DNA of 64,000 nucleotides from Bolinopsis microptera. Lineage: Eukaryota > Ctenophora > Tentaculata > Lobata > Bolinopsidae. The position numbers were made by a program, and so were the translations under genes. Shown here one piece after another: positions 4,335 through 62,118 of the stretch (the first letter of the stretch is position 1; the number at the start of each line of letters is the position of its first letter). Location of the stretch: assembly GCF_026151205.1 (NCBI RefSeq), contig NC_087082.1, positions 19,740,494-19,804,493 on the forward strand, given 5' to 3'. The notes below the pieces were generated by a model, which was not told the DNA's origin, did not search any database, and saw only the letters and a program-made list of their open reading frames with translations.

Positions 4335-7300
4335 TCATGTTGTAGGTCCTTCCTTTTCTTTTCTGTCACTCGGGGGGAACCTCCGCTTGTTCACTTTACT
4401 CAAGAATCTGGCAGTTTCTCTGATCAATAGGATATCCTTGAAGAGGTCGGCAAAGGTCTCCGCTCCAGAGGTGATCATGGTTCTCGCCTGCTGACCTATG
4501 TTTCGCCTCAGGTCGTCGTAAAGCGAACAATCCGTGAGAACGTGTTTCTCATCTTCAATGATCGGCTCAAACATCGGTAGTTCGGCAAGTATACCGACAG
4601 CTTCAAGGTCTGATGAAGAACAGTGCTTACAAATGCGACTGAGCGGATTTTCACGGTTGATGGCGTATCTACCGGTCTCGATGTTGAACTTATGAGCACT
4701 CATTCTGAACTGCGCCAGCCGCTTCACCTCTTCTCCACTGAGCTGCAGGTTCAGGTACGCTTCAGCTGTAAATTCACTTTTGATAGTGTTGTAGAAACTG
4801 AGCTTCCGGTTGTTTTGCCGCTCATCGTTCCAACAGTTAATAAAAGTACTACGTAGTGCTGTTTTGAATTGGTTGGGGTAGGTCAACCTGCGAGATGATA
4901 CTGACTGAAGGCTTTGTCGGAGATCTTCTATACCTTTGTACCATGGCAGATTGAGTGTGCGTTGTTCTATGAACGCCTGTCTGGCTAGACTTGTGCAACC
5001 AGCTCTGTCCATTTGCTCAAGTCGGTTGAAATACCCAAATACTTGCTTTGATGCCTTTATCACTAGGGGGCAGCGGCCTGTATCACCCCATACACTCGCA
5101 TTTGAGGTTTTTCTGCCCACTCCTAAGGTCCACTTGAGGAATGAGAGATGAAGCTTTTCGAGAGGATCTCTTGCAGTCTCCTTCAGGAGAGATTTGGTGT
5201 TGATATTATCTTGATAGTTTCTGACAAAGAGAGTCTCTGGGAGCCACACCTGACATCCGTATGTCACAATCGGTACCACAAGCGCGTCGAATAGCTTGAA
5301 TATGATTGTTCGCCTGAAGTGTCTTAAGTCAATACTGCTTTTTAGCGCGAAGTAGCTTCTGAGACCTTTTTGCTTCAGTTTGTTCTGTGCTACTGCTGAA
5401 GAACCGTTGAGGGTAAAGGTTATCCCGAGGTAGCAATATTCTCGAACTGATGTGATGTTGGTTTCGCCGAGTTGGAATGTCAGACTCTCTTTAAGGAGCC
5501 TCCCGGAACGGTTGAACACCATCACTGCCGTTTTTCCGATGTTAACGGTTAGTCCCCATTCGATACAGTAACTGTGTAAAACGTTTAGAAGTTTCTGTAG
5601 TCCAGTATGGTCAAGGGCAAGAAGTATAAGATCATCAGCCCAGAGGAGATGAGTGATATTAACATTATTCAGTTCAGGGACGTTGACTTCCTCAGCGTTA
5701 TCCAGATCTAGGGAGAGTTGGTGGATGAAACACTTGAACAGCTCAGGAGACATCGGGTGACCTTGCTCAGTCCCACAGTGAATGTCGATTGTCTCTGACA
5801 ATCTGTTCAACAGTTTGATTTTTGCTGAGGAATGTGAATACATCTGCTCGATACATTGAAAGTATCGACCTCTTACTCCTAGCTCCCAGAGTTTATAGAG
5901 CATGGCATCTCGGCACACAGAGTCGAACGCCTTCGCGTAGTCGACGAAGCATCCATATAGCCTCTTTTTCCGTTGCGTTACATACTTTTGGATGCAAGTT
6001 GAGAGTGTTAGTATGTGGTCACTCGTCTGTGCTTTTTTACAGAACCCTAGCTGGTTTATGGTGTCTGGACAGTTCAGTGACCGGAATGTGAGTAGGCGCT
6101 GTAATAAGATAGTTGAAAACAGCTTCCCAACATTGCTCGCCACGGCTATCGCCCGGTAGTTGTTCGGATCGTATACACTCCCCTTTTTGTGCAAGGGGGT
6201 AACTAGAGAGGTCGTCCATGGATACTCCCCGAGTTTCAAACAGTGGTTGAACAGGTTGAGAACAGCTGACAGCATTGGTTCATCTGACGAAATGAGGAAC
6301 TCATTCAGGATTTTATCTTCGGCGATGGCTTTCCCTTTCTTAAGGCCTTTGATGGCGGTCCGAAGTTCCTCTATTTCGATATCTTTGTCCAGAACTTCCA
6401 CGAGTTCATGAACACGAAGTTCAGTCTTTCTGCGTTCCGTGAAGTCAGCAGTTTCTTCATTCGGGATGGAAGGTTTTGAGTACAGCTCTTTGAAGAATTT
6501 ACAGAAGTTCATCATATCGAAAACGTCCAGCTTTGAGCCATTTGAGGAGAAGCTTTTAAGTTTCTTAAAGCGACTCCAGTTTATGTCGCGCCCCTCGTCA
6601 ACATCACGACAAAGAGATTCCACGAACTTGGCCTTCTTCTGTCTCACGAGCTTTCGGTATTCGCGGCGTTTGTTGTAGTAGCTGTCTCTCAGTTCTTTAT
6701 CAAGAGGACTTTTACCGTATGTTTTAGCTAATCGATTTAGTTCACGTTTTTCGATGATGCAGGCAATATCAAACCATGGAGACTTCGGTTTTGCCCTTTT
6801 GTATCCCCGAGTTTTCCTATTGAGGGGTTTTTGTTTATGTTTTCTAGGTCTTGGTAGGGCCTGATCAGCCATATCACGATAAATGCCGACGATGTTTTCA
6901 TTGAGCTTAATGACATCCTCCTTTTTTACGCAAACAGCTTCAACCAGTTCCGCGATTCTGCTTGCAAACTGGGGTTCTTTTTGGACATCTAGGAACTGCT
7001 GTTTATTCTCTGAAGCATTCTCGTCCCATTTGTGTTTTATTGGGGCTGGCTGGAGTGAGGATAGAATTTCGTCCGGATCAATTATATAATTATGACTCAG
7101 TTTCAGTGTGCATAAGCATGGGCGGTGGTCTGAGAATTTCGTAAGATCTAAGACCTTAAGACTTTGCACCGATTCCCTTAGCATGGGGGATGCTGTTACG
7201 TAGTCTACAACGCTGTGTCCATTGTAATTAATTGAGGTGGGTTCCCCGAAGATGTCTCCTAGTGTATCACCATTAAGAATGCTAAGGTTCAGACTGGATA

Positions 7301-7961
7301 TGAAGTCCAGAAAGAGTTTTCCCCTTGGGTTTATCACAGAGTCTTTGCTTGATCTTGTTGATTTTTCTGGAAAGCTTGCGATCGTTGAGAAAGCCTCGAT
7401 GTCAGCTGGAGGTTCATCATCAAAGTTAAAGTTGAGGTCCCCTGTTCTTGCATTGAAGTCTCCTAGAACCAGTTTCTCGCCGAGATCTGTGTTTTCAGCA
7501 ACAAAGTCAATAATGGATTCGAGTGTTGACTGGGATGGTCCACCATTGCTGTTTTTCAGTCTCTTTTTGTAGGATGACTGCTCTGGGGAGTCGTATACGT
7601 TGATTATTGTGAACTTAAGAGTATCATCAGTGGCGGGGCAAAAAGTCACCGCTTGAATATCTGGATGGGAGCTTTTTACGGGCTTGAAGTCTCCTGACAG
7701 GGATCGATGGACCCCCACACATAGCCCACCGGAGCGCGAGCCAGTTCTAAGGCTATTGTAGCATTTGAAGTTTGGAAGGTGGAACTCAGCCTTCGTTTCC
7801 TGCAGGCAGAATATGTTACACCCAATGAGAAGTTTGACGAAGTCCTCATCATCGGCCTTGGGGCCCTCTTTGAAGGACATTGCGTCATGAATGTTCCACG
7901 ACAAGATCCTCATAAGGTCTTGTTGGTGGCTCGTAGTCCTATCAGGTATAGAATTAATCAT
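4335..7961 (-). CDS. LINE ORF2: endonuclease-reverse transcriptase
   Basis: This 1208-residue protein nicks target DNA and reverse-transcribes element RNA (target-primed reverse transcription). The N-terminal APE endonuclease shows Asn23 (SWNIH), Glu55 (CLQET), LVLGDFNAR with Asp168 and Asn170, and SDHRP with Asp278 and His279. The reverse transcriptase shows FVDYAKAFD (Asp674), TEQGHPMSPELF from 731, and LLWADDL with the catalytic Asp776-Asp777. A C-terminal zinc knuckle is Cys1111-x2-Cys1114...His1140-x4-Cys1145. All key residues are present and the frame is uninterrupted, so this copy may be recent. The start is a true ATG. A frameshifted extension of ORF1 would overlap this start by 8 nt (7954-7961). 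The TEQGHP box differs from the usual boxes of L1, RTE and CR1, so the clade is left open. Confidence 0.93.
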   Translation of the reverse strand: MINSIPDRTTSHQQDLMRILSWNIHDAMSFKEGPKADDEDFVKLLIGCNIFCLQETKAEFHLPNFKCYNSLRTGSRSGGLCVGVHRSLSGDFKPVKSSHPDIQAVTFCPATDDTLKFTIINVYDSPEQSSYKKRLKNSNGGPSQSTLESIIDFVAENTDLGEKLVLGDFNARTGDLNFNFDDEPPADIEAFSTIASFPEKSTRSSKDSVINPRGKLFLDFISSLNLSILNGDTLGDIFGEPTSINYNGHSVVDYVTASPMLRESVQSLKVLDLTKFSDHRPCLCTLKLSHNYIIDPDEILSSLQPAPIKHKWDENASENKQQFLDVQKEPQFASRIAELVEAVCVKKEDVIKLNENIVGIYRDMADQALPRPRKHKQKPLNRKTRGYKRAKPKSPWFDIACIIEKRELNRLAKTYGKSPLDKELRDSYYNKRREYRKLVRQKKAKFVESLCRDVDEGRDINWSRFKKLKSFSSNGSKLDVFDMMNFCKFFKELYSKPSIPNEETADFTERRKTELRVHELVEVLDKDIEIEELRTAIKGLKKGKAIAEDKILNEFLISSDEPMLSAVLNLFNHCLKLGEYPWTTSLVTPLHKKGSVYDPNNYRAIAVASNVGKLFSTILLQRLLTFRSLNCPDTINQLGFCKKAQTSDHILTLSTCIQKYVTQRKKRLYGCFVDYAKAFDSVCRDAMLYKLWELGVRGRYFQCIEQMYSHSSAKIKLLNRLSETIDIHCGTEQGHPMSPELFKCFIHQLSLDLDNAEEVNVPELNNVNITHLLWADDLILLALDHTGLQKLLNVLHSYCIEWGLTVNIGKTAVMVFNRSGRLLKESLTFQLGETNITSVREYCYLGITFTLNGSSAVAQNKLKQKGLRSYFALKSSIDLRHFRRTIIFKLFDALVVPIVTYGCQVWLPETLFVRNYQDNINTKSLLKETARDPLEKLHLSFLKWTLGVGRKTSNASVWGDTGRCPLVIKASKQVFGYFNRLEQMDRAGCTSLARQAFIEQRTLNLPWYKGIEDLRQSLQSVSSRRLTYPNQFKTALRSTFINCWNDERQNNRKLSFYNTIKSEFTAEAYLNLQLSGEEVKRLAQFRMSAHKFNIETGRYAINRENPLSRICKHCSSSDLEAVGILAELPMFEPIIEDEKHVLTDCSLYDDLRRNIGQQARTMITSGAETFADLFKDILLIRETARFLSKVNKRRFPPSDRKEKEGPTT

Positions 7962-8096
7962 TGCGCTTCCTTTTCGGTTTGTATCCAGTTTCGTCCTCGT
8001 AATTCCCGTGACTGGTCTCCATGTCTACAGTTCTATAAAGAGAATCACGAAACTTCAGCCAGGTTTTCCGTTGGCCTCTTTCTGAGAGGAACAGTT

Positions 8097-16163: not shown

Positions 16164-16475
16164 TTAAGGCCAGAGGGCCTTTAATGTGTTACATCTTTAT
16201 ACTTTTATATACCATATTATGTCAAGTGCAATGGTAATGTCGCCAAATCTGTTAATGTGTAGCAGAGAACGCAACATTTTGCTTGTAAGGCCTTCTACTA
16301 GTACTATAGGGCCTGTGATAATGCAATTGTATTTATATTTGATATTGACTCTGATTAGTTTATTTGAAAGAATTGAGCCAAAATTTGAAAAAAAAAAGAA
16401 AGTTCGGTCACTGGCCCTAGTTTGTTGGTCAAACATGGTTTGGCACAGTCAAACAAAGATTAAGTTCAAACAAAC
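16164..16475. mobile_element. Short non-autonomous element with a terminal hairpin
   Basis: A near-perfect palindrome (ACATTAAGGCCAGAGGGCCTTTAATGT, 16163-16189) is followed by sequence repeated inverted at 29200-29435. The segment 16300-16445 is repeated inverted at 61955-62105. It carries the reverse complement of the 32-35-bp module beginning TTGACCAACAAACTAGG that also occurs in the fold-back element at 38484-39840. No coding capacity. Confidence 0.55.
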
Positions 16476-16589
16476 CGTCACAATCATCCTCGTCTGATCC
16501 GTCATTACAATCTTCTTCTCCGTCACACAACCATTTTGTTAGAATACAACCGTCACCATCTGAACATGGTTCTCTGCCATTCGCACAAA
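16476..16589 (-). CDS. LDL-receptor class A exon (copy A)
   Basis: On the minus strand an acceptor CAG precedes a 114-nt, phase 1-1 exon that ends before a GTTTGT donor. It encodes one complete LDLa module with six cysteines and the calcium-binding end [16 protein letters not shown]. LDLa modules are extracellular ligand-binding units. Symmetric phase-1 exons are the usual shuffled form and fit the phase-1 TSP1 exon at 33031. The upstream signal-peptide exon is at 16973-17030. The next downstream sequence is transposon debris, so this is probably a 5' fragment of the receptor gene family represented at 33-40 kb. Confidence 0.8.
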
Positions 16590-16972
16590 CTGATTGAATA
16601 ACAAGGCAAAATTAAGTTCACTATAAAAACATAGTTGTCGAGAGATTTATGCATATTTATCATACTTAGATTTTATATGACTTGACCCAGAAGTACAAAT
16701 ATTTGCCGGTGAATTTCATATCAATACAATTTACAAAATAAGTCTTGTGTTCATTATCTTAAATGAAGTTGAAGTGATATGGCAAAGAGGAGCGGCAATC
16801 AGCATGGCTAAAGTACCATGCAGCCTTTTTAATTTAAGGGAAAAATCATTTTCTTTTTCTGAGCCATATATAGTTAATGATTACTACTGCTTAAAAAAAC
16901 AGATTGATTTAATGAAAGAATTTTAGAAACATGATTTAAAACATGTGGATAAAATTAAAAACGAACGCTCAC
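16590..16972 (-). other. Intron of copy A containing an empty hAT insertion site
   Basis: This short intron keeps a single CATATCAC string (as GTGATATG on the plus strand near 16777). The partner intron at 59447-61814 holds the same 8 bp twice, flanking a 1.97-kb element, so copy A preserves the pre-insertion state. Confidence 0.75.
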
Positions 16973-33231: not shown

Positions 33232-36200
33232 GTGAGTGTAACAAAACAATTCGCGACATGATTCTAAGTTAGGAATAAGTTTTACCAACATTGCTTTTGT
33301 AACTACTCAACTATATATATCTGACCATATATTTTGGACATTTTAAAGTTAGATGCTGTTAGTGTTCAAATTAATGAAGTACAGCAAAAATTCTAAAACT
33401 TGCCAGATTATATACCGTCGAATTTTGTGTACCGTTATACCATTGTTTAATCCCCAGAAATGTGCGACTTCGTAAATGGGAAGAGTTCTATCCCATGTAC
33501 GACATGGGATATAATGTTAAATAAAATGAAAAATCTTAATATATAACGTATTAAAATTGGACTTTCTGTATTTAATAAATATAATCGTCTAAAGCATTGC
33601 TTACTATTACAGATGAAGTTCAGTTTTCTCTTTACGGGACGGATGGTAAACCAAGCAACGGAAGTGCTGGAGTAGTTTTGGTTAAAGTGCTTAACCGGGT
33701 TTGGCTACTAATGTTTTATATTGTATTATTGTAACTGTCTTAATGTGAAAGTAACTAGTATAAAGGCCCCGTGAACGAATATTTAATATTATATTATATC
33801 TTTATAATATGTGTATTTCAAAACGTCTTTACTGCACCAGCTCAAGGAATAAAAATGTGTATCCGAAAATATTGAAAGAGTTGGAAAATGTTTCAGTTTA
33901 TAAATATTTATAAAATTGTCAATCAAAACATTGTTAATTTTTATTGATATTCAGCACAAACTGCGTTTTCACAACATTCTTTTGTGTGGTTTGGCCTAGT
34001 CGAACAAAAATATATTTGATAAATATCTAAAATTTGACAATATTTTTCATCTGTTTTTGTTTTCAGACAGCAACCGTCTCTCTGTCGAACTTCTCAGACT
34101 ACAAAGCAAATGTCATATGCAAGAAGCTTGGGTATGATTATGCCGAGGATTGGTTTGATTTAGATAACGAGTACTTTTGGGGAGCGATAGAAACCTGGTA
34201 AGGAACGCTTTATTTATAACTGTTTTAGTGCTTAATGACAAACTTTGTGGCGATGTTAAACAATGTGCTTCTGTGAAAGCGGGAAAACTTTTGACTTAAT
34301 TTTTATTAGAATTGATTATTTGATCAATGAATAGAGACTTTGTATTTAATTAACGAGCAAATTTTGATTTTGCGGCTTGGATCAAATTTGTCTGATTTTT
34401 ATTTCATTTTGCTCAATCCCGTTTCTCAAGATGGTCAAAAATACGGTCTCTTTTGCTCCTAAGCATTTAATTTCAATATCAACTTCAACTTGAGGACTGC
34501 TCCAACAAAAAATCCCTTTTAAACAAGTGCTGAATTATAATTGTGCAAGTGTACATTATGTTCTCATCAATTAAATTCCAAACACAGGATCACTGTATTA
34601 GATGATGCACCAGAACGATACCAAGAAATCCTGAAACATGGCGATAACAAAGAAAATACAGCAATGAGAAATCTGCTAGATCATGCTAGAGTGATGACAA
34701 ATTTTTCTTGTGATAAAACTAAAAGTGATTTTGATTTCGATAGCTGTTCTTATTCCTTGGAGAGGAGACATTTCCGTACGGGCAATAAATATAATAACTA
34801 TACATTGGGACTTCTTTGCAATGTACAGCCTGGTAAGTCCTAAATATACCATTTATCTTAGCATATTTCTTTTTATTTGTTGTGTCTAACAATTAATAAT
34901 ATAAAATATTAAAGAATATACAAATGGACATTTATTACTTATTTTCAGTTTATTCTTATTTTCACCTTTAGCGGCTGAAAAATATTTACGCTGCACACTG
35001 CACACTGGTTTTGAAGCAACATTGATATTGTTATTTCTTTAAAAATTATTTCAGGATCGTGTAACATTGCCGAAACTAACGGATTTTTTAAAAATGTTTG
35101 TCAACAAGACGAAAATTTTAAAATTATTGAATGCATCGATTCCTCAAAATATTACGTATATCTTCCACGTAAGCGACCGAAATCAGCAAACTACCGCTAC
35201 CCTGAAGTAACAAAGCTCTGTTCTAAGGATCCTCGCATTTATCAAGGTTGTATAGATGACGAGCAAAACACCATATCATTATCACTGATGTTACAATCAG
35301 GAGACAATTCGAAATCTTTTTGTAACAGAAATTTTACAAAACAGATTAGGGTAGTAAAACCTGATGTTTTCACCCTTATCCCTGATGATCCATTTTATAT
35401 GGCCAGGGGTTTTTTTATGACTAATTTTACTACATGTAATGGATTATGTGAAGTTCATGGTTGTCTTGATGAAGCGTTGTGTAATGGTTATCGTTATGGT
35501 ATATTTTGTGAGAGTATCACAAATAATATGTCATATGTGAGCGTGCAACAAATATGCGATACCAGAGTTGATTGCGAAAGTGGTGAGGATGAAATTGGTT
35601 GTAACAAGTACAATCATCATATGATAGATCTCTATACTGGTAAGAATGGTTTATTTAACATAAAACCTCGAGGAAATGAAGCCATCAATTATTTGGATTA
35701 CAAAGATAACCTTGCTCAGAAAAAACTGTATGAAGATGTCAAAAAGAGCAAACAATGCCTTCCAACATGGAATCCAATACCGAATCCAGAATGGAATCGA
35801 GAATCATCGTTCTCATACCAGAGGCTTTCTAATTTTACAAGATGTTCTGCGCTAATTATTTATAGAGCTTTCTATATTGATTTATCAACAAACATAATGA
35901 AGCAAGTTGACGGTAAGCCGTATGTGCCATACTGCAAATTCTTTATGGATCAAACCAATTGTACGGACCCAATGAGAGGAGTAGTGTCGTGCATGATTGA
36001 CGGCTACCCATCTACAGTGTCTAAATTTGCCACCTGCGTTCAGAACCCAGGTTTGTGCGATGATGGGTTTGACAGCTTATGTTTGAGAACCAGTCGCTCT
36101 TGTAATGTCCATAAGCATCGATTTTGCAATGGAATTTCAGACTGTTCCGATAAAAGTGATGAAACATCCAAGATCTGTGACAGAATGACTTTGTCTACAT

Positions 36201-38707
36201 GTTCCCGCCGATATCGTCACGACAAAAAACTTCCCATACCCATCTCTTGGCTGATGGACGGAAGTAAAGACTGTCTTAAGGGAGAAGACGAAACAGAAAT
36301 CTGGCCAACATGTGGAATCGGCAGATTGTCTCGTTATGTGCCTGACAGCAGTAAATGTGAAGATGTTTACATCTGCAGCCCTAGATCGTACCATTACGTA
36401 ATGTTCCAAGATCTGTGTAACGGTTATGACATTTGTGATCATGCAAGAGTTTGCGGTCAGACTAGATCATCCGAACATGTTTTCACAAACCCCATCGCCA
36501 TTGGAACAAGAAATCCATTGGAATTTCTTATACATTGTGTTGCCGGAGTGAGTACAAGTTTAGGTCACTATATATCACAATGCGTCAAAAAAGATTTCTT
36601 GCCAGTCTCAATTTTTGGACTCGATGGTATACCAAAGATTGTTTTACCAAAGACCATGGTAGACTGCACAAACGTATATGGAAGAGTGTACGTTTATCTT
36701 AGTTGCTTGAAAAAATGCAAAGAGCAGCCTGTTTGTCCATTGCGACCACTTAACTATGACTCATGTAAGATTGATAATCAATACGAGGACAGGATTTTTA
36801 CAATAGAAAATAAGAATCGCCTGACCTTTTTAAATAAAAATAAGAAAAGTGGACGGTATCAAAATAACATATTTCTCTGCAACAACGATAGATGTGTCGA
36901 TTATGACAAAGTTTGCAATTTGGTAGACGATTGTGGCGATAGCTCAGATGAAGATACATGTATTAACAACTTTTTATGCATATCTTCAAAACGCTTCATT
37001 GGACGGAGCCAGAAATGTGATGGGAAAATAGATTGTGCTGACTACACCGACGAGTGCAATGAGGACTGTAGAACAACAATTATTTCAAAACTCTCTCTAA
37101 AGGTTTTCAGTTGGGTTGTTGGTTGTGCAGCAGTTATCCTAAACTCTGTCAAACTTTTTAAGAATTTTAGACACCTGGCAACCAGACATTTTACGTCTGC
37201 ATTGAACAATAAAGCTCTGACAACTGTCATTCATATTGGGGATCTAATAACGGGACTGTACCTGTTAACCATCGCTACTTTAGACTCAGTCATCTTTGCG
37301 GAATCATACTGTAAAGAAAGATATAATTGGTTATCCAGTGATGGGTGTGCTTTCTTGGGAGTGTTCAGTACATTCGGTGGTCAAATATCCCTCTTTTCAA
37401 TGACAGTTCTCAGCATATTTAGGGCTATCGGTATCATCAAAGTCCAAAAACTGACATCCAAACATGCAGCTGCAAAAATGGTCATCATCATCGCAATAAT
37501 GTCAATTGCATCATTTTATCTAGCCTATATCCCCTTAATGGTCCGATATGAGGATATCTTTGTCAATGGCATGACATATAATCCAAACATTACAATATTT
37601 CCAGCATTTGTGACCAAAGACATGCACATTAACAAGATAAGCAAGTATTATGGAAGACTCGTTGACTCTGCCGTGTACACTTGGGCAAAAATCGATAGTT
37701 TGATAAGCCCAATGTTTTCAAACCAATACGGAGGCATAGGGAGACGCAAAGTTCATTTTTATGGCAATGATGGCGTTTGTCTGTTCAAATACTTTGTATC
37801 AGGAGAAGACTCACAAAAAGTTTATGTATGGTCAAATCTAATCCTGAATTTTGTGTGTTTCACCATCATATTTATCTGCTACAGCAAGGTTTTGTTCTTT
37901 ACAAAGAGCTCAAAACGACGAGATAGAATGTGCAATAACGAAGCCCAAAATAGGCGCTCAAGAGATAAAGAGGAACCCAATCTTCAAATAGCCCTCATAA
38001 TTGCGACAGATTTCTTTTGTTGGGTCCCTTTTATATCGGTGTGTATGTTGCATTCTTTTGAATTAATGGATGCTACAGCCTTGTATCCAATATCTTCGAT
38101 CGTGATTCTACCAATAAATTCTGTTATAAATCCCATTCTATATCATGATTACATAATCGTGACAATCAAGTTGATGGTAAATAAAATTAGATATTGGGTA
38201 TCTCTATTTTACATGTCTTATATAAGACGATGTTTACTATCGATAAACAAATTCGCTAGAACTTTACGAAAGAAAAGAGATGTGGAAAGAAACGTCGCCA
38301 TGACTCCGCAATCTGCTTTCAATGCAAATGAGCTGTCAGGACAAAATGAAGAAATCAGAACTTGTAATAATAACAAAACTGTCAACAAGGAAGATTCTAC
38401 TTTTTTGCACAAAAATGATGATACTATGGACTTGGATTCTGCTTCAAAATCAGATATCACAAAAAAGAATTCCACCACATTAAGGGGGGGGGCCAATGGA
38501 TATTTTTTTGTGAAACTTGATTTCGAGATAGCAGTTGACCAACAAACTAGGACCAGTGACCGAACTTTTGAGGGGGTCCCGGACCCTAACCGCCAAACGG
38601 TGCCTGCGGGGCAGCCACGCCCATATTTGGTCCAAATTAGGCCCAATTTAGCCAAATACCCTGAACATGCCCAAAACCCAAATTTTAGGTGCTCTACTTG
38701 TAGCTAG
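33031..38707 (+). CDS. Modular class-A GPCR: TSP1, SRCR-like, LDLa repeats, 7TM
   Basis: Five exons fit with consistent phases: 33031-33231, 33613-33698, 34067-34197, 34588-34832 and 35055-38707. Exon 1 encodes a TSP1 repeat (FYSWSDCSADCGGG). Exons 2-4 spell an SRCR-like domain (ANVICKKLGY; FDSCSYS...LGLLCN). The last exon has LDLa modules, the best being CNVHKHRFCNGISDCSDKSDE and CNLVDDCGDSSDEDTC, then TM1-TM7. TM2 has the conserved Asp (HIGDLITGLYLL), TM6 has FFCWVPF and TM7 has NPILY. The DRY site at the end of TM3 is altered (SIFRAIG). The layout resembles LDLa-bearing relatives of relaxin/LGR receptors but without leucine-rich repeats. The 5' end (signal peptide) is not found nearby. The last ~73 residues and the stop come from an inserted fold-back element; the native tail resumes at 39845. 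Ligand unknown. Confidence 0.85.
33613..34832 (+). CDS. Three small exons encoding an SRCR-like domain
   Basis: Exons 33613-33698 (phase 1 to 0; donor GTTTGG is weak), 34067-34197 (0 to 2; donor GTAAGG) and 34588-34832 (2 to 1; donor GTAAGT). Joined, they stay open. The AxVICxxLGY core is a hallmark of scavenger-receptor cysteine-rich domains. The first half is poor in cysteine, so the domain is atypical. Confidence 0.7.
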
Positions 38708-39840
38708 TGGTCTCCTGAACTCGTATATGAAATTTCATCAAGATTGGACAAAAAATGACTGAGTTATGAGCCAAAAACCATATGCCCATATTTGGGCATA
38801 CGCACCAAATTTGGTAGATTTCGTCCCATAAATTGGTCAAATATCAATATTTTTCACTGAAACTTACTTTATATGAAAGGTAAGCCTAAACTACATATTC
38901 TCTGTAAGTTATAGCTTTATATCTGTTTAAATGTGGATACTAAGGCGAAAATACCACAAAAAATGAACTAAATTGCCCATATCTCGGTTCGCGATATTCG
39001 CGGAATTGATCTCATTAAAATTGTAACAACTCGATCAGTTTTCAAAATTTTTCCATGAAATTTTCGGAATCGACTCGAAATCGCATTTCCACCTTAGTTT
39101 GAGAACAGATTTTTGATTTAGGCCTCAAAAAAAATTTGGCGGCCAAATTCCAAAATTTTCCCGGAGAAATTCAGAATTTGGCCGCCAAATTTTTTTTGAG
39201 GCCTTAATCAAAAATCTGTTCTCAAACTAAGGTGGAAATGCGATTTCGAGTCGATTCCGAAAATTTCATGGAAAAATTTTGAAAACTGATTGAGTTGTTA
39301 CAATTTTAATGAGATCAATTCCGCGAATATCGCGACCCAAAATATGGGCAATTTAGTTCATTTTTTGTGGTCTTTTCGCCTTAGTATCCACATTTAAACA
39401 GATATAAAGCTATAACTTACAGAGAATATGTAGTTTAGGCTTACCTTTCATATAAAGTAAGTTTCAGTGACAAATATTGATATTTGACCAATTTATGGGA
39501 CGAAATCTACCAAATTTGGTGCGTATGCCCAAATATGGGCATATGGTTTTTGGCTCATAACTCAGTCATTTTTTGTCCAATCTTGATGAGATTTCATATA
39601 CGACTTCAAGAGACCACTAGCTACAAGTAGAGCACCTAAAATTTGGGTTTTGGGCATATTCAGAGTATTTGGCTAAATTGGGCCTAATTTGGACCAAATA
39701 TGGGCGTGGCTGCCCCGCGGGCACCGTTTGGCGGTTGGGGTCCGGGACCCCCTCAAAAGTTCGGTCACTGGTCTTAGTTTGTTGGTCAACTGCTATCTCA
39801 AAATCAAGTTTCACAAAAAAATATCCATTGGCCCCCCCCC
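38484..39840. mobile_element. Fold-back element with ~670-bp inverted arms, TTAA flanks
   Basis: The two halves (38484-39160 and 39166-39840) are near-perfect reverse complements, meeting at a short loop near 39163. Outer ends are nine G and nine C followed by CCAATGG/CCATTGG, flanked on both sides by TTAA (38480-38483 and 39841-39844). TTAA target duplication is typical of piggyBac and Kolobok families. No transposase is encoded. The element lies in the coding sequence of the GPCR and supplies its present stop codon. Confidence 0.9.
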
Positions 39841-39844
39841 TTAA

Positions 39845-39960
39845 ATAAAACAGAAACTGAATATTCGAAAATTTTCCTAACAGGAAAAGTTTTCGCGAGC
39901 AAATTCAGTATTACGCAAACGATATTGACAACCATTCCTGAAGAATGCGAAACATCTTAA
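39845..39960 (+). CDS. Displaced original C-terminal tail of the GPCR
   Basis: If the element and one TTAA are ignored, the receptor frame (…ACC ACA TTA) continues in phase from 39845 for 38 codons to a TAA at 39958-39960, beginning NKTETEYSKIF. The segment is rich in Ser and Thr, as expected for a receptor cytoplasmic tail. It is now separated from the rest by 1.36 kb unless the element is spliced out. Confidence 0.7.
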
Positions 39961-50210: not shown

Positions 50211-50305
50211 ATTCTAGTCTCTCATTCTCAGCTCCTCCAAGTCTTCCGAGTTCTTTTCTTCTTTCCTCCTCTCCTCTTGCCTCTCTCATCTTCTATACCT
50301 GACTG

Positions 50306-53300
50306 ATGAACATCGTCAACGGTATAATTTCCTGGAATGTTGCAAACATTCATGGCTTGCTCGGAAACAAAGTTGAGGATCCCGAATTTGTCAAAATCAT
50401 CAGTCCAAATGATATAATCTGCCTCCAAGAAACCGGATGCGAAGTTTCCCTGAAAGGATACAAATCCTATAGTGACATCCGCAAATCAGGTAAAGGAGGA
50501 GGAGTAACCACTTTGGTTAGGAACACAATTGTGGAATATTGCTCTCTGGATAAATGCACACTCACTGCGGACCATACAATGAATATTGTCATTGTTAAAA
50601 TCACTGATCCCGACAGCAATCTCAACACCTTTGTTGTCAATAGCTACATCCCACCTACAAATAGCAAACAGAAAAACCGCACTAACTGCTCCGAGGCAAA
50701 CTTTGATGTCCTTCAGGAAAAAATAACCAGCATCAAGAATAACCCCAGTGATGAGCTATTACTTCTTGGTGACCTTAATGCCAGGATAGGAGTAGCTCCA
50801 GATTTTCATATGTATGACAGAGCGGACGAATTCGAGCTCTTTCCAGAAACTGGCAGGTCTTCCGACTTCATGGTTATACCTGACGTGGCACCTATATCTC
50901 AAAATAGGAACAGCCAGGACAAAATTACCAATAGACACAAAAACCTTTTGCTTGACCTCTGTGGATCACAAAACCTCCTGATCCTTAATGGACGTACCAT
51001 CGGTGACTCTGCTGGAAAATACACATGCTACAAGTGGAACGGAAACAGCGTAGTGGACTACTTCATTGCATCAACATCCTTTCTTCACCGTGTCAAGAGC
51101 CTCTCAGTGGGTGAACACACTCTGTTCTCCGATCACAATCCAATCTTACTCAGCCTTTGGCATAGACGAAGGGCCTCTCAAAGGAATAGTCAAGCTCCCA
51201 CCAGTATCTACGAGGAAGCTCCCTTTCGATACAAGATCACAGAAGAGGGTTTAGCCAACTTCACAAAATCATTTGAACAGCCTGAGTTCATTCAAAGAAT
51301 CTCCCAACTGACCAAAGATGTCGAATCCACTCCAAAAACCCATGAGGCAGTTGAAGCACTGAATAGGCATATTACAGAACTCATAAACGATGTCGCTAAA
51401 AAAGAGTTCGATATCTCTAAACAAACTAAGAATCCAAAACCTAAGTTCGCCTCATGGTTTGACGGCAAGTGTCACACTGCACGACGCCTTTTCAAACGGT
51501 CAATAAAAATTGTCGACAACAATCCTGATAACCAGAGAATCAAAACACGGCATCGCGCCAACTCTAGAGGATATCGAAAGATTGTCAACAAGAAAAGGGA
51601 TGACTTCTTCAATAGCCTTAACAAGAAGATTAAAAACGGTAAAACTATATCCTGGAGAGATTTCAAGAAGCTTAAGAACTACAAGAAGGAAGAAGTCCAA
51701 ACTGAAACGGAGCAACTCAACTCTTTCCATCAGTTCTACTCTGAGCTATATTCTGACAATCATCCAACCGTAGACACTTTCACTAAAAGAGCTCTCCTCG
51801 AAGAAACCAACGCCCTATCCGAGGGATCTGCCCCTAATGAGTCACTGAACAGCCCATTTACTTTGGATGAGCTGAACGCTGCGCTAAGGGAACTCAAATC
51901 GGGCAAAGCATCTTCTTTTGACCACATCAGCAACGAAATGCTCCGGGGTCTGAGCGTAAATATGAGGTCGCTCCTCCTCAAACTCTTCAACCTGTGCCTG
52001 GAGACAGGAGTCTACCTCTGGAGCAAAAGTGTGATCACACCAATTCACAAAAAAGGGTGCATCAGGAACCCTGACAACTATAGAGCAATAGCAGTCTGTA
52101 GCTGTATCGGAAAACTGCTCTCTACGATGCTGCTATCTCGGCTCGTTAATCACCGCCAAATCTCACATCCTGATCCACCCAACCAAGCAGGCTTTACCAA
52201 AGGAAGTCAATGCAATGACCATATATTTACGCTGATGTCCACCATAGAAAAATACAAGAAAGTCAAAAGTAAAATATATGCAGTATTCATTGATCTTCGC
52301 AAAGCTTTCGATCTAGTCTGCAGACAAGCTCTCATGTTCAAACTAGCCTGCTATGGTGTCAATGGTGGCTACTACGACATCATCAAAGACATGTACAGCA
52401 AATCAGAGGGTCATATTAAGATGAATGGTAAAATCAGTGAAGCATTCAAGATCCTTAAAGGAACTGAACAAGGACACCCACTTAGCCCTGAGTTTTTCAA
52501 AGTTTACTTTAAAAAGCTTTCTGACCTCCTTAACGAAGCTACTACGAACTGTCCGACACTCGCTGGACTTTCAGTGACTCACCTAGCGTGGGCTGATGAT
52601 CTAGTTATACTTGCCCTAGATGCTGAGTCCCTCCAAAAGTTGCTTACGATTATTGGGGACTACTGTAACGAATGGGGTCTGGAAATCAATATCTCCAAAA
52701 CCAAATTCATGGTCTTCAATGGTAAAGGACCAGACATTCCAAATTGGCGTCCTTCCATTCACGAAAGAGATATCGAGATGGTCTCCAGCTACTGCTATCT
52801 TGGGATTATTATAAGCAGCACAGGGAAATTTCGGCAAGCAACTGACTCTCTATACCGAAAAGGACTTGGAGCTTACTTCAGCTTGAGAAGCACTATAGAC
52901 CGGAGATTCGTTGATGCATCCTGCCTCAACAAATTATTTAACACCCTTGTTAAGCCAATTCTACTTTACGGCTGTCAAGTTTGGGCCCCGGTTCTACCCA
53001 CCGTCAATAAGGTCCTCTCTAGCTTCAGCAAGTTTCACAATCTTGATCATGCGGTCTCTCACATCGCTAAACAGCAACTTGAGCAAGTGCATCTACGACA
53101 CCTAAAATACCTTCTTGGTATAAACAGAAGGGCAGTCAATGCTACAGCCTGGGGAGAAACTGGCTCATACCCAATCATTATTGAAATGTTGAAACTGAGT
53201 ACTAAATATTTCAAAAGAGTTATGAGCCTCCCCTCTACACAACTAGTCAAAGCTGCAATGACTGAGCAGATTAACCTCAAATTGTCATGGTTTGTAGGCA

Positions 53301-53932
53301 TCGAATCAATCATCAAATCATTCAACAACATCGACCTCCTTGAAAGGAATTCATCGTCGCTGCTGAACGCAACCTCACTCGCAGACTCCTGCAGCCCTGA
53401 ATTAATCACAGAGAACCTGAAAAAACAGTTCCGCGATTCCTGGGGTTCTCTTGTGAAAGATTCTAGAAAGCTATCATTCTACAGTGAAGTCAAAACAGAA
53501 TTTGCATGGGAGCCATATCTAACCTATGCTAAGTCTTTTCAGGACAGAAGGGCAACCACACAGATTCGGTCCAGTTCTCATCACCTTAGAATTGAAAGGG
53601 GGAGATATGACAAAACTCCAATTGATGAAAGGACCTGCAACTATTGCGAGCTTAACACCAACCAGCTATTCATCGAGGACGAGAATCATATGCTCCATTT
53701 CTGCCCCCTAGGGAAAGGTCCTAGGGACAAATTTCAAAATCTCAGTGGAAACCTACTCAACAATGTTGGTAATGGTAGCTTCAATCTTGCCTCCACGTTC
53801 ATGTCGCAGTCTGATTGCAAGGATACTCCCAGTGATGAGGACGTAAGTTTGATCAAACTCTCAACCAGCACCATTAACAAGATCTACAGACTAACCCTCA
53901 ACTTCAAAGACAGTCTGAAAGCAGATAATTAG
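50306..53932 (+). CDS. LINE ORF2: endonuclease-reverse transcriptase
   Basis: 1208 residues from an ATG. The APE endonuclease shows Asn11 (SWNVA), Glu42 (CLQET), GDLNAR with Asp156 and Asn158, and SDHNP with Asp276 and His277. The reverse transcriptase shows FIDLRKAFD (Asp663), TEQGHPLSPEFF from 720 and LAWADDL with Asp764-Asp765. A CCHC knuckle (Cys1111-x2-Cys1114-x13-His1128-x4-Cys1133) closes the protein. It is the same length as the minus-strand ORF2 at 4335-7961 and aligns along its whole length, but with many differences. No lesion is visible, so it could be active. Confidence 0.94.
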   Translation: MNIVNGIISWNVANIHGLLGNKVEDPEFVKIISPNDIICLQETGCEVSLKGYKSYSDIRKSGKGGGVTTLVRNTIVEYCSLDKCTLTADHTMNIVIVKITDPDSNLNTFVVNSYIPPTNSKQKNRTNCSEANFDVLQEKITSIKNNPSDELLLLGDLNARIGVAPDFHMYDRADEFELFPETGRSSDFMVIPDVAPISQNRNSQDKITNRHKNLLLDLCGSQNLLILNGRTIGDSAGKYTCYKWNGNSVVDYFIASTSFLHRVKSLSVGEHTLFSDHNPILLSLWHRRRASQRNSQAPTSIYEEAPFRYKITEEGLANFTKSFEQPEFIQRISQLTKDVESTPKTHEAVEALNRHITELINDVAKKEFDISKQTKNPKPKFASWFDGKCHTARRLFKRSIKIVDNNPDNQRIKTRHRANSRGYRKIVNKKRDDFFNSLNKKIKNGKTISWRDFKKLKNYKKEEVQTETEQLNSFHQFYSELYSDNHPTVDTFTKRALLEETNALSEGSAPNESLNSPFTLDELNAALRELKSGKASSFDHISNEMLRGLSVNMRSLLLKLFNLCLETGVYLWSKSVITPIHKKGCIRNPDNYRAIAVCSCIGKLLSTMLLSRLVNHRQISHPDPPNQAGFTKGSQCNDHIFTLMSTIEKYKKVKSKIYAVFIDLRKAFDLVCRQALMFKLACYGVNGGYYDIIKDMYSKSEGHIKMNGKISEAFKILKGTEQGHPLSPEFFKVYFKKLSDLLNEATTNCPTLAGLSVTHLAWADDLVILALDAESLQKLLTIIGDYCNEWGLEINISKTKFMVFNGKGPDIPNWRPSIHERDIEMVSSYCYLGIIISSTGKFRQATDSLYRKGLGAYFSLRSTIDRRFVDASCLNKLFNTLVKPILLYGCQVWAPVLPTVNKVLSSFSKFHNLDHAVSHIAKQQLEQVHLRHLKYLLGINRRAVNATAWGETGSYPIIIEMLKLSTKYFKRVMSLPSTQLVKAAMTEQINLKLSWFVGIESIIKSFNNIDLLERNSSSLLNATSLADSCSPELITENLKKQFRDSWGSLVKDSRKLSFYSEVKTEFAWEPYLTYAKSFQDRRATTQIRSSSHHLRIERGRYDKTPIDERTCNYCELNTNQLFIEDENHMLHFCPLGKGPRDKFQNLSGNLLNNVGNGSFNLASTFMSQSDCKDTPSDEDVSLIKLSTSTINKIYRLTLNFKDSLKADN

Positions 53933-59652: not shown

Positions 59653-61622
59653 CAGGGGTGTAGGAAGCGGGGGGGCAGGGGGGGGCCATCGCCCCCCCCC
59701 CCATGAAATCTGGGCAAGGGGCCAAAAAGGGCCAACTTTTTAATTTAGGTTTCTAAAAATTTTTTAAGTCAAAAATTTTTTAAGTCAAAAATTTTCTGAT
59801 TCAAAAATTTTCAAAGTTTTCTTGAAACTTTGAACAAAATACTTTTGTTCATGTTTCATGCTACCCTGATCATTATGAGCCAAAAATATTTTTTTCGGTT
59901 TTCGAAGTTCAATATACGATTTTGGACTCGAGGGTTCCCCTTTGTAATGCGATCTCGGAAGGCAGGCCTCCCTTTCGCAATACGAGCTCCGAAGCTCTGC
60001 TTTCAGAGGTACGTATCGAGAATGACTCGGACCGAAAATTTTCTAAGTCAAAAATTTCCAAATTTTTTCTGGAAACTACTTTTGTTCATGTTTCATGCTA
60101 CCCTGATCATTCTGAGCCGAAAATATTTTGTTCGGTTTTCGAAGTTCAACATACGATTTTGGACTCGAGGGTTCCCCTTTGTAATGCGATATCGGAAGGC
60201 AGGCCTCCCTTTCGCAATACGAGCTCGGAAGCGGGAGCTCTGCTTTCAGAGGTATGTATCGAGAATGACTCGGACCGAAAATTTTCTAAGTCAAAAATTT
60301 CCAAATTTTTTCTGGAAACCACTTTTGTTCATGTTTCATGCTAACCTGATCATTCTGAGCCGAAAATATTTTTTTCGGTTTTCGAAGTTCAACATACGAT
60401 TTTGGACTCGAGGGTTCCCCTTTGTAATGCGATCTCGGAAGGCAGGCCTCCCTTTCGCAATACGGGCTCGGAAGCGGGAGCTCTGCTTTCAGAGGTATGT
60501 ATCGAGAATGACTCGGACCGAAAATTTTCTAAGTCAAAAATTTTCAAAGTTTTCTTGGAAAATACTTTTGTTCATGTTTCATGCTACCCTGATCATTCTG
60601 AGCCGAAAATATTTTTTTCGGTTTTCGAAGTTCAATATAAGATTTTGGACTCGAGGGTTCCCCTTTGTAATGCGATCTCGGAAGGCAGGCCTCCCTTTCA
60701 CAATACGAGCTCCGAAGCGGGAGCTCTGCTTTCAGAGGTATGTATCGAGAATGACTCGGACCGAAAATTTTCTAAGTCAAAAATTTCCAAATTTTTTCTG
60801 GAAACCACTTTTGTTCATGTTTCATGCTAACCTGATCATTCTGAGCCGAAAATATTTTTTTCGGTTTTCGAAGTTCAACATACGATTTTGGACTCGAGGG
60901 TTCCCCTTTGTAATGCGATCTCGGAAGGCAGGCCTCCCTTTCGCAATACGGGCTCGGAAGCGGGAGCTCTGCTTTCAGAGGTATGTATCGAGAATGACTC
61001 GGACCGAAAATTTTCTAAGTCAAAAATTTTCAAAGTTTTCTTGGAAAATACTTTTGTTCATGTTTCATGCTACCCTGATCATTCTGAGCCGAAAATATTT
61101 TTTTCGGTTTTCGAAGTTCAATATAAGATTTTGGACTCGAGGGTTCCCCTTTGTAATGCGATCTCGGAAGGCAGGCCTCCCTTTCACAATACGAGCTCCG
61201 AAGCGGGAGGTCTGCTTTCAGAGGTATGTATCGAGAATGACTCGGACCGAAAATTTTCTAAGTCAAAAATTTTTGAAGTTTTTCTGGAAATTACTTTTGT
61301 TCATGTTTCATTCTGAGCCGAAAATATATTTTTTGGTTTTTTTGAAGTCTATATACCTACATTCGGAAGGTTGTGGATGTGATACTGATTGGTTTCATAT
61401 ACTAATTATAGAAAATTTGATATTTGGCCCTCAGATTTAAAGGAAAATGCGCAATTTGATGCGGAAAACTGAAAAAATCGCGATTTGTCGTGAGGCCAGG
61501 ATCTGAAAACTCGAAATTCAGGCTTTGGCGCGAAGCGCCAAAAAATTTAGGCTGTGGCGCGAAGCGCCAAAAAATATTTAGAATTTGGCCCCACCATGAA
61601 GAAAATCATTCCTACACCCCTG
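59653..61622. mobile_element. hAT-like non-autonomous element with 8-bp target duplication
   Basis: CAGGGGTGTAGGAA (59653-59666) and its perfect reverse complement (61609-61622) form the ends, flanked by CATATCAC on both sides (59645-59652 and 61623-61630). CAGGGGTG ends and an 8-bp duplication are hallmarks of hAT elements. Arm A carries one CATATCAC and no insert. The interior is a G/C-run hairpin (about 59670-59702), a 243-bp tandem array, and two copies of TTGGCGCGAAGCGCCAA near 61523 and 61551. No transposase. Confidence 0.9.
59835..61316. repeat. Six-copy 243-bp tandem array with 486-bp higher-order unit
   Basis: The landmark GAGAATGACTCGGACCG recurs at about 60018, 60261, 60504, 60747, 60990 and 61232. 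Units alternate between two types, so 60344-60830 and 60830-61316 are nearly identical 486-bp dimers. Because 243 is divisible by three, a 536-codon frame and a second frame stay open; this is most simply a consequence of repeat length. Confidence 0.92.
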
Positions 61623-61814
61623 CATATCACTTCAACTTCATTTAAGATAAAGAACTCAAGACATATTTTGTAAATTGTATTGATATGAAATTCACCGGCA
61701 AATATTTGTACTTCTGGGTCAAGTCATATAAAATCTATGTATGATAAATATGCATAAATCTCTCTAAAACTATGTTTTTATAGTGAACTTAATTTTGCCT
61801 TGTTATTCAATCAG

Positions 61815-61928
61815 TTTGTGCGAATGGCAGAGAACCATGTTCAGATGGTGACGGTTGTATCCTAACAAAATGGTTGTGTGACGGAGAAGAAGATTGTAAT
61901 GACGGATCAGACGAGGATGATTGTGACG
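61815..61928 (+). CDS. LDL-receptor class A exon (copy B)
   Basis: A 114-nt phase 1-1 exon after CAATCAG, ending before GTTTGT. It encodes an LDLa module with six cysteines and an acidic calcium site ([10 protein letters not shown]). Same as 16476-16589. Transposon sequence starts 30-40 bp downstream; no further receptor exon is seen before the window ends. Confidence 0.82.
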
Positions 61929-62118
61929 GTTTGTTTGAACTTAATCTTTGTTTGACTGTGCCAAACCATGTTTGACCAACAAACTAGGGCCAGTGACCGA
62001 ACTTTCTTTTTTTTTCAAATTTTGGCTCAATTCTTTCAAATAAACTAATCAGAGTCAATATCAAATATAAATACAATTGCATTATCACTGGCCCTATAGT
62101 ACTATAGTTAGGGACAAT

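Follow-up and report, generated by a model that had tools for sequence, protein, structure and literature searches.

A young TTAA-flanked fold-back transposon in the last coding exon of an LDLa-repeat receptor gene of Bolinopsis microptera

Kolobok transposons are marked by a TTAA target and a terminal RR, and the ends of the T2-MITE of Xenopus begin with AGGRR (PMC6004289, excerpt). PiggyBac ends carry the motif CC[C/T]T, as cited in the excerpt of a report on the coral CMITEs, which measure ~100 bp (PMC2872659). Galileo of Drosophila is filed with the P superfamily in the excerpts of two papers on Galileo and Tetris (PMC4079207, PMC3573991). On the side of the host gene, the LDLRR-GPCRs of Ciona carry LDL-A repeats ahead of a relaxin/LGR-like seven-transmembrane (7TM) part, 14 members being confirmed (PMC2396169, excerpt). 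Here we describe a locus of the ctenophore Bolinopsis microptera where a real, well-bounded and young TTAA fold-back transposon sits in a receptor gene.

The window, that is the whole stretch of 64,000 nucleotides that was analysed (NC_087082.1, positions 19,740,494 to 19,804,493), carries on its plus strand a receptor exon (35015–38483) whose stop-to-stop open frame, as it now stands, extends from 35015 to 38707. This frame encodes LDLa repeats and a 7TM part; its last 74 codons lie within the inserted element, the first of them using the last A of the left TTAA. Both domains are found by Pfam in one protein, 7tm_1 (PF00001) at 6.3e-15 and the LDL-A repeat (PF00057) at 9.9e-15 in five stretches, their joint presence identifying an LDLa-repeat rhodopsin-type GPCR. 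The solved proteins nearest to the 7TM half are the LH/CG receptor (7.2e-12) and relaxin receptor 1 (1.5e-11). At least 71 places in the genome match the receptor, the best 40 of 746 candidates having been scored; several of these places can belong to one gene, so that 71 is not a gene count. The host gene belongs to an LDLa-repeat GPCR family that has expanded recently and is related to relaxin and glycoprotein-hormone receptors. As far as the excerpt of the Ciona report goes, it has in common with the LDLRR-GPCRs both the architecture of LDL-A repeats plus relaxin/LGR-like 7TM and a lineage-specific expansion (PMC2396169). When the window sequence 34900–38483 is compared with seven sister copies (L050–L055 and L057), identity is ~96–99% in the 7TM half and tail and 81–96% in the extracellular part, a distribution of divergence that resembles receptor families with a diversifying ligand side.

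The exon is interrupted by a sequence in the order TTAA, G9, a 1,339-bp body, C9 and TTAA. That is, a non-coding fold-back element of 1,357 bp (38484–39840) is flanked by two copies of its target site (38480–38483 and 39841–39844). The left arm (38484–39161, plus strand) opens with the terminal run of nine G (38484–38492), the length of which sets the frame of the fused tail, and the right arm (39163–39840, minus strand) ends in C9 (39832–39840). Counted with the TTAA, the inverted arms (38480–39161 and 39163–39844) comprise 682 nt each, pair with 20 mismatches (97% identity) and stand 1 nt apart, which confirms the preliminary description of a TTAA-flanked fold-back with near-perfect arms in the receptor frame. 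As RNA, the element folds into a single hairpin of -1202.8 kcal/mol. The present stop codon of the receptor (38705–38707, plus strand) is located inside the left arm, and the displaced native 3' coding end (39845–39960, plus strand, stop at 39958–39960) follows the right TTAA. The window copy has no coding capacity of its own, frames lying wholly inside it being short (at most ~75 aa), and an Rfam scan of the window gave no match at the gathering score. Elsewhere in the window, 16299–16781 and 61623–62104 are inverted copies on opposite strands, 98% identical, that by eye hold an LDLa-like coding stretch; a 34-bp motif adjoins this pair and also occurs near fold-back element ends.

The element belongs to a sizeable family. 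At least 79 places in the genome match its left arm at 97–100% identity, the two arms of the window copy included and the best 40 of 1,935 candidates having been scored, and the exact element end occurs 121 times as compared to no occurrence of a reversed-pattern control; a chance palindrome is excluded by these counts. Unpaired ends are also present among those listed. Forty places were fetched and 37 copies compared, leaving out L020, retrieved in shortened form, L045, whose left end was unrecognised, and L048, which has one arm only; these 37 are the best-scoring matches to the window copy, hence biased to intact ones. TTAA stands on both sides of 35 of the 37 copies, the exceptions being L018 (TTCA/TTAA) and L043 (TTAA/AATG), and 35 likewise have ends of the form TTAA-G run and C run-TTAA. 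In this best-match sample, the body measures 1,339 bp in 28 copies and is within 1 bp of that length in 35 (L046, 1,341; L035, 1,327). Of 74 ends, 33 have a G/C run of 9; the shortest run is 6, at the damaged end of L043, and the longest 34, a spread that matches the expectation of slippage in a mononucleotide run. Two types of arm exist, and most copies combine one with the other. By eye, the outer parts of both arms are much alike in about six of the 37, and in L035 the inner part is swapped relative to the outer part, so that the arms are not independent, a pattern that points to conversion or exchange between them. The element shows the long inverted arms with almost no interior, the lack of a transposase, the uniform size and the many copies that characterise a fold-back or long-TIR MITE. 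The family is a new one of an already known kind, the TTAA fold-back transposon; at the level of titles and abstract openings, the literature surveyed held no published description of it.

The receptor is not the sole coding stretch near or in which copies lie. When the flanks of 35 clean copies were joined, the spanning frame was longer than in each of 200 base shuffles for seven of them, namely the window copy, L015, L019, L027, L029, L038 and L046. The left flank of L019 matches a reverse transcriptase (Pfam) and that of L046 does so below the Pfam cut-off (25.8 of 29.6 bits), L029 adjoins a thrombospondin type 1 exon and L027 an RAI1-like exon; the spanning frame of L038 is, by eye, a simple repeat. 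The window itself contains two frames of more than 1,200 aa (4335–8024, minus strand; 50303–53932, plus strand) that by eye resemble a non-LTR endonuclease/reverse transcriptase, as well as a tandem array of ~243-bp units (59788–61340) with a long open frame through it.

Joining the flanks of the window copy with one TTAA extends the receptor frame by 38 residues to a stop at 39958–39960. To compare this end with sister genes, 20 receptor loci were fetched, one of them being the window's own (L049), and 12 paralogues align across the junction. In all 12, the native frame runs through the junction uninterrupted and without the element, with a recognisable end around EECETS; thus, the native end is real and was lost. 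The paralogue nearest across the junction, L053 (640 bases aligned without gap, 97.2%), stops at the same place as the native frame of the window, and the other 11 extend further. It had been claimed that removal of the element with one TTAA reopens 38 codons up to position 39960, and this holds in a frame that is common to the 12 paralogues: no paralogue terminates at the TTAA, and the frame of 39845–39960 is present in each. At the junction, 10 of these paralogues read TTGA and L054 reads TTAA, whereas L062 has a different sequence. Hence, most paralogues display an empty position rather than an empty TTAA, and the target TTAA probably arose from a silent TTG to TTA change in a Leu codon.

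The insertion is found in the window copy alone among the receptor copies examined, the element matching none of the other fetched receptor loci. In one orientation and across 37 copies, the window element differs from the family majority at 9 of 1,339 bases, and 6 of these differences are private relative to that sample; over all copies, the range is 1–17 differences and 0–8 private ones. Synonymous divergence (dS) of the receptor between the window copy and its six closest paralogues (L050–L055) is 0.064–0.087, and 0.24 to L056. With 6 private substitutions in 1,339 bases set against these dS values, the insertion is later than the L050–L055 duplications, in support of the recent origin suggested in the preliminary description. 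The preliminary description had deduced a recent date from the instability of long palindromes, a premise that is a supposition here, with the compared copies biased to intact ones and unpaired ends also present. In the one assembly covered, the insertion is perhaps polymorphic, as was also suggested.

Building on the observed element, its TTAA sites, the empty paralogous positions, the native frame, the family and the relative age, we propose the following course of events. A silent Leu TTG to TTA change would probably have first created the target TTAA in one gene of the LDLa-repeat GPCR family, within the last part of its coding sequence. A TTAA-specific transposase, acting in trans on a non-autonomous, transposase-free fold-back copy (long-TIR, MITE-like), would then have allowed this copy to enter that TTAA. 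At the present G9, 74 element-encoded residues would take the place of the final 38 in the cytoplasmic tail, and a hairpin of ~680 bp would come to lie in the 3' portion of the transcript. The likely outcome is that this allele of a redundant gene is reduced or altered and largely dispensable; it may be polymorphic. We hold this account as a whole, i.e. a trans-mobilised TTAA fold-back inserted in a redundant receptor, with 38 tail residues displaced and an altered allele as the result, to be very probable.

The alternative that survives best is a plain pseudogene, in which the transcript is lost, either owing to the hairpin or because splicing past the new stop leads to decay, and no receptor is made; we regard this as quite possible, if on balance not probable. 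Splice sites were scored with approximate weights, and for the region 38250–39850 the 12 top-scoring donors were considered. A strong donor-like site lies in the element at 38880, ~170 bases beyond the new stop, and acceptor-like sites follow further downstream; since this donor comes behind the stop, any splicing would be likelier to mark the transcript for decay than to restore the receptor. Moreover, loss of members is not rare in this family, in-frame stops being present in the sister copies L052, L054, L057 and L058. However, the remaining receptor frame of the window copy is free of stops, and its dN/dS of 0.44–0.64 relative to L050–L055 indicates some constraint before the insertion, a ratio that is silent on the short time since.

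A second alternative, a functional tail exchange in which the 74-residue end is used and alters arrestin binding or sorting, appears distinctly unlikely. In its favour, the 74 codons are open and Ser/Thr content drops, the lost piece having 12 Ser/Thr among its 38 residues and the new one 8 among 74. The preliminary description had estimated about 73 transposon-encoded residues at the end of the present frame; there are 74. It had also held that the receptor's own tail is replaced, which is true of the last 38 residues, whereas most of the cytoplasmic tail stays: after the NPILY motif, 113 of 151 residues, with 20 Ser/Thr, are kept. This speaks against a functional exchange, as does the dependence of the new end on a slippage-prone G run, the length of which sets the fused frame. 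With G9, the new tail has 74 residues, with G10 12 and with G11 10; among the lengths tried (7–13), a long tail of 74–75 residues is obtained with 9 or 12 G only, and 7, 8, 10, 11 or 13 G yield 9–13 residues after the Leu. Furthermore, the related copies L069 and L071 have a closely similar open frame at their left ends, as expected of conserved end DNA, and a coding meaning of the 74-residue tail was rejected as unsupported. Changed desensitisation or trafficking of the receptor, as once envisaged, is a guess. That the G run acts as a slippage-prone frame switch in the coding exon is highly doubtful in our eyes. Since G/C runs range from 6 to 34 in other copies, different tails between cells or individuals are nonetheless conceivable; if this reading were true, an animal receptor would have acquired a contingency-like switch from a transposon.

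According to a third alternative, splicing frees the messenger of the element and so yields the native receptor, a suggestion that also goes back to the preliminary description. An acceptor-like sequence, C9TTAAATAAAACAG, indeed lies just past the right end, at 39853. However, the donors ahead of the stop at 38705 score 2.8, 1.9 and 1.4 as compared to 10.9 for the best one inside the element, and without a strong donor before the new stop this reading is very improbable from the sequence. Finally, an assembly artefact is barely credible. In its favour, the evidence stems from one assembly; against it, the TTAA is clean at both ends, the alignment of the flanks to the paralogues extends as far as the junction, and the same structure recurs in dozens of copies elsewhere.

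We return to the account of a trans-mobilised element that leaves an altered allele in a redundant family. The locus amounts to a natural experiment: the hairpin sits at a known codon of one receptor copy and is missing from several others that are nearly identical. What the loss of 38 tail residues does, or a long hairpin in the messenger, could thus be measured directly by comparison. Its significance is modest unless use is made of the G-run switch or the hairpin.

As to the mobilising enzyme, PIF/Harbinger transposons generate a 3-bp TWA target duplication, which is at odds with the four-base TTAA on both sides of 35 of the 37 copies. Foldback-type elements such as Galileo use target sites other than TTAA. 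With TTAA on both sides of nearly all copies and the position empty in each of the 12 aligned paralogues, the most fitting interpretation is a non-autonomous DNA transposon that targets TTAA. Wide pairs of ends were chosen among the ends listed (121 exact ends, up to C11; 307 ends, up to C4), and neither these nor the transposase loci examined yielded an autonomous partner or a transposase with matching ends. Three candidates were discarded: L069 (C4:2513943-2520744) is an element copy holding a reverse transcriptase (Pfam), and L071 (C2:19845542-19848806) and L072 (C4:7532016-7536472) are copies of a diverged subfamily with retrotransposon-like frames by eye. This diverged subfamily also has G-run ends. 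The retrotransposon nested in L069 has a minus-strand frame of 516 aa that, judged by eye from its motifs, may be a fusion of an AlkB-type oxygenase with an SGNH-type hydrolase.

Three piggyBac transposase copies (L070, L073 and L074) are near-identical (97.0–98.7%); a 78-bp repeat array lies upstream of them, in an open frame in L070. Among six of 26 matching piggyBac places examined, two groups could be delimited whose right ends, CCCATTAGGG.. and CCCATATAAT.., differ from the element. Two copies of a THAP plus Mutator-like transposase (L075 and L076) are 99.6% identical, and we take such loci to be Kolobok-like on the basis of the THAP part and the TTAA with an AGG end in this pair. Their 3' end, which reads AGGACC.. 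inwards, is absent from the element; it is one Kolobok-like end, and few of the 60 THAP/Kolobok-like matches were examined. L077–L079 had no partner for a comparison of ends, and the match between L080 and L081 runs to the end of L081. By a check of coordinates by eye, no element end is found within ~30 kb of THAP/Kolobok-like loci among the ends listed, a set that extends into C11.

Within what the excerpts of the respective reports describe, the element resembles several known systems in part. With the foldback-type elements Galileo and Tetris of Drosophila it shares very long inverted arms (PMC4079207, PMC3573991). With piggyBac and TTAA MITEs such as the coral CMITEs it has in common the TTAA target site duplication and the non-autonomous state; unlike piggyBac, however, it begins with G and lacks CC[C/T]T next to the TTAA, and at 1,357 bp it is far from the ~100 bp of CMITEs (PMC2872659). 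Like Kolobok and T2-MITE, it combines a TTAA target with a terminal RR, here GG, and has non-autonomous high-copy relatives, whereas in contrast to T2-MITE the G run follows directly after the TTAA in place of AGG, and the AGGRR motif is absent (PMC6004289). The presence of THAP-type transposase genes in this genome is a further likeness to Kolobok. Taken together, these features lead us to lean towards Kolobok as the superfamily, as far as ends and target site can tell, and the family, with G runs that follow the TTAA and arms that seem to exchange sequence, enlarges the catalogue of TTAA transposons.
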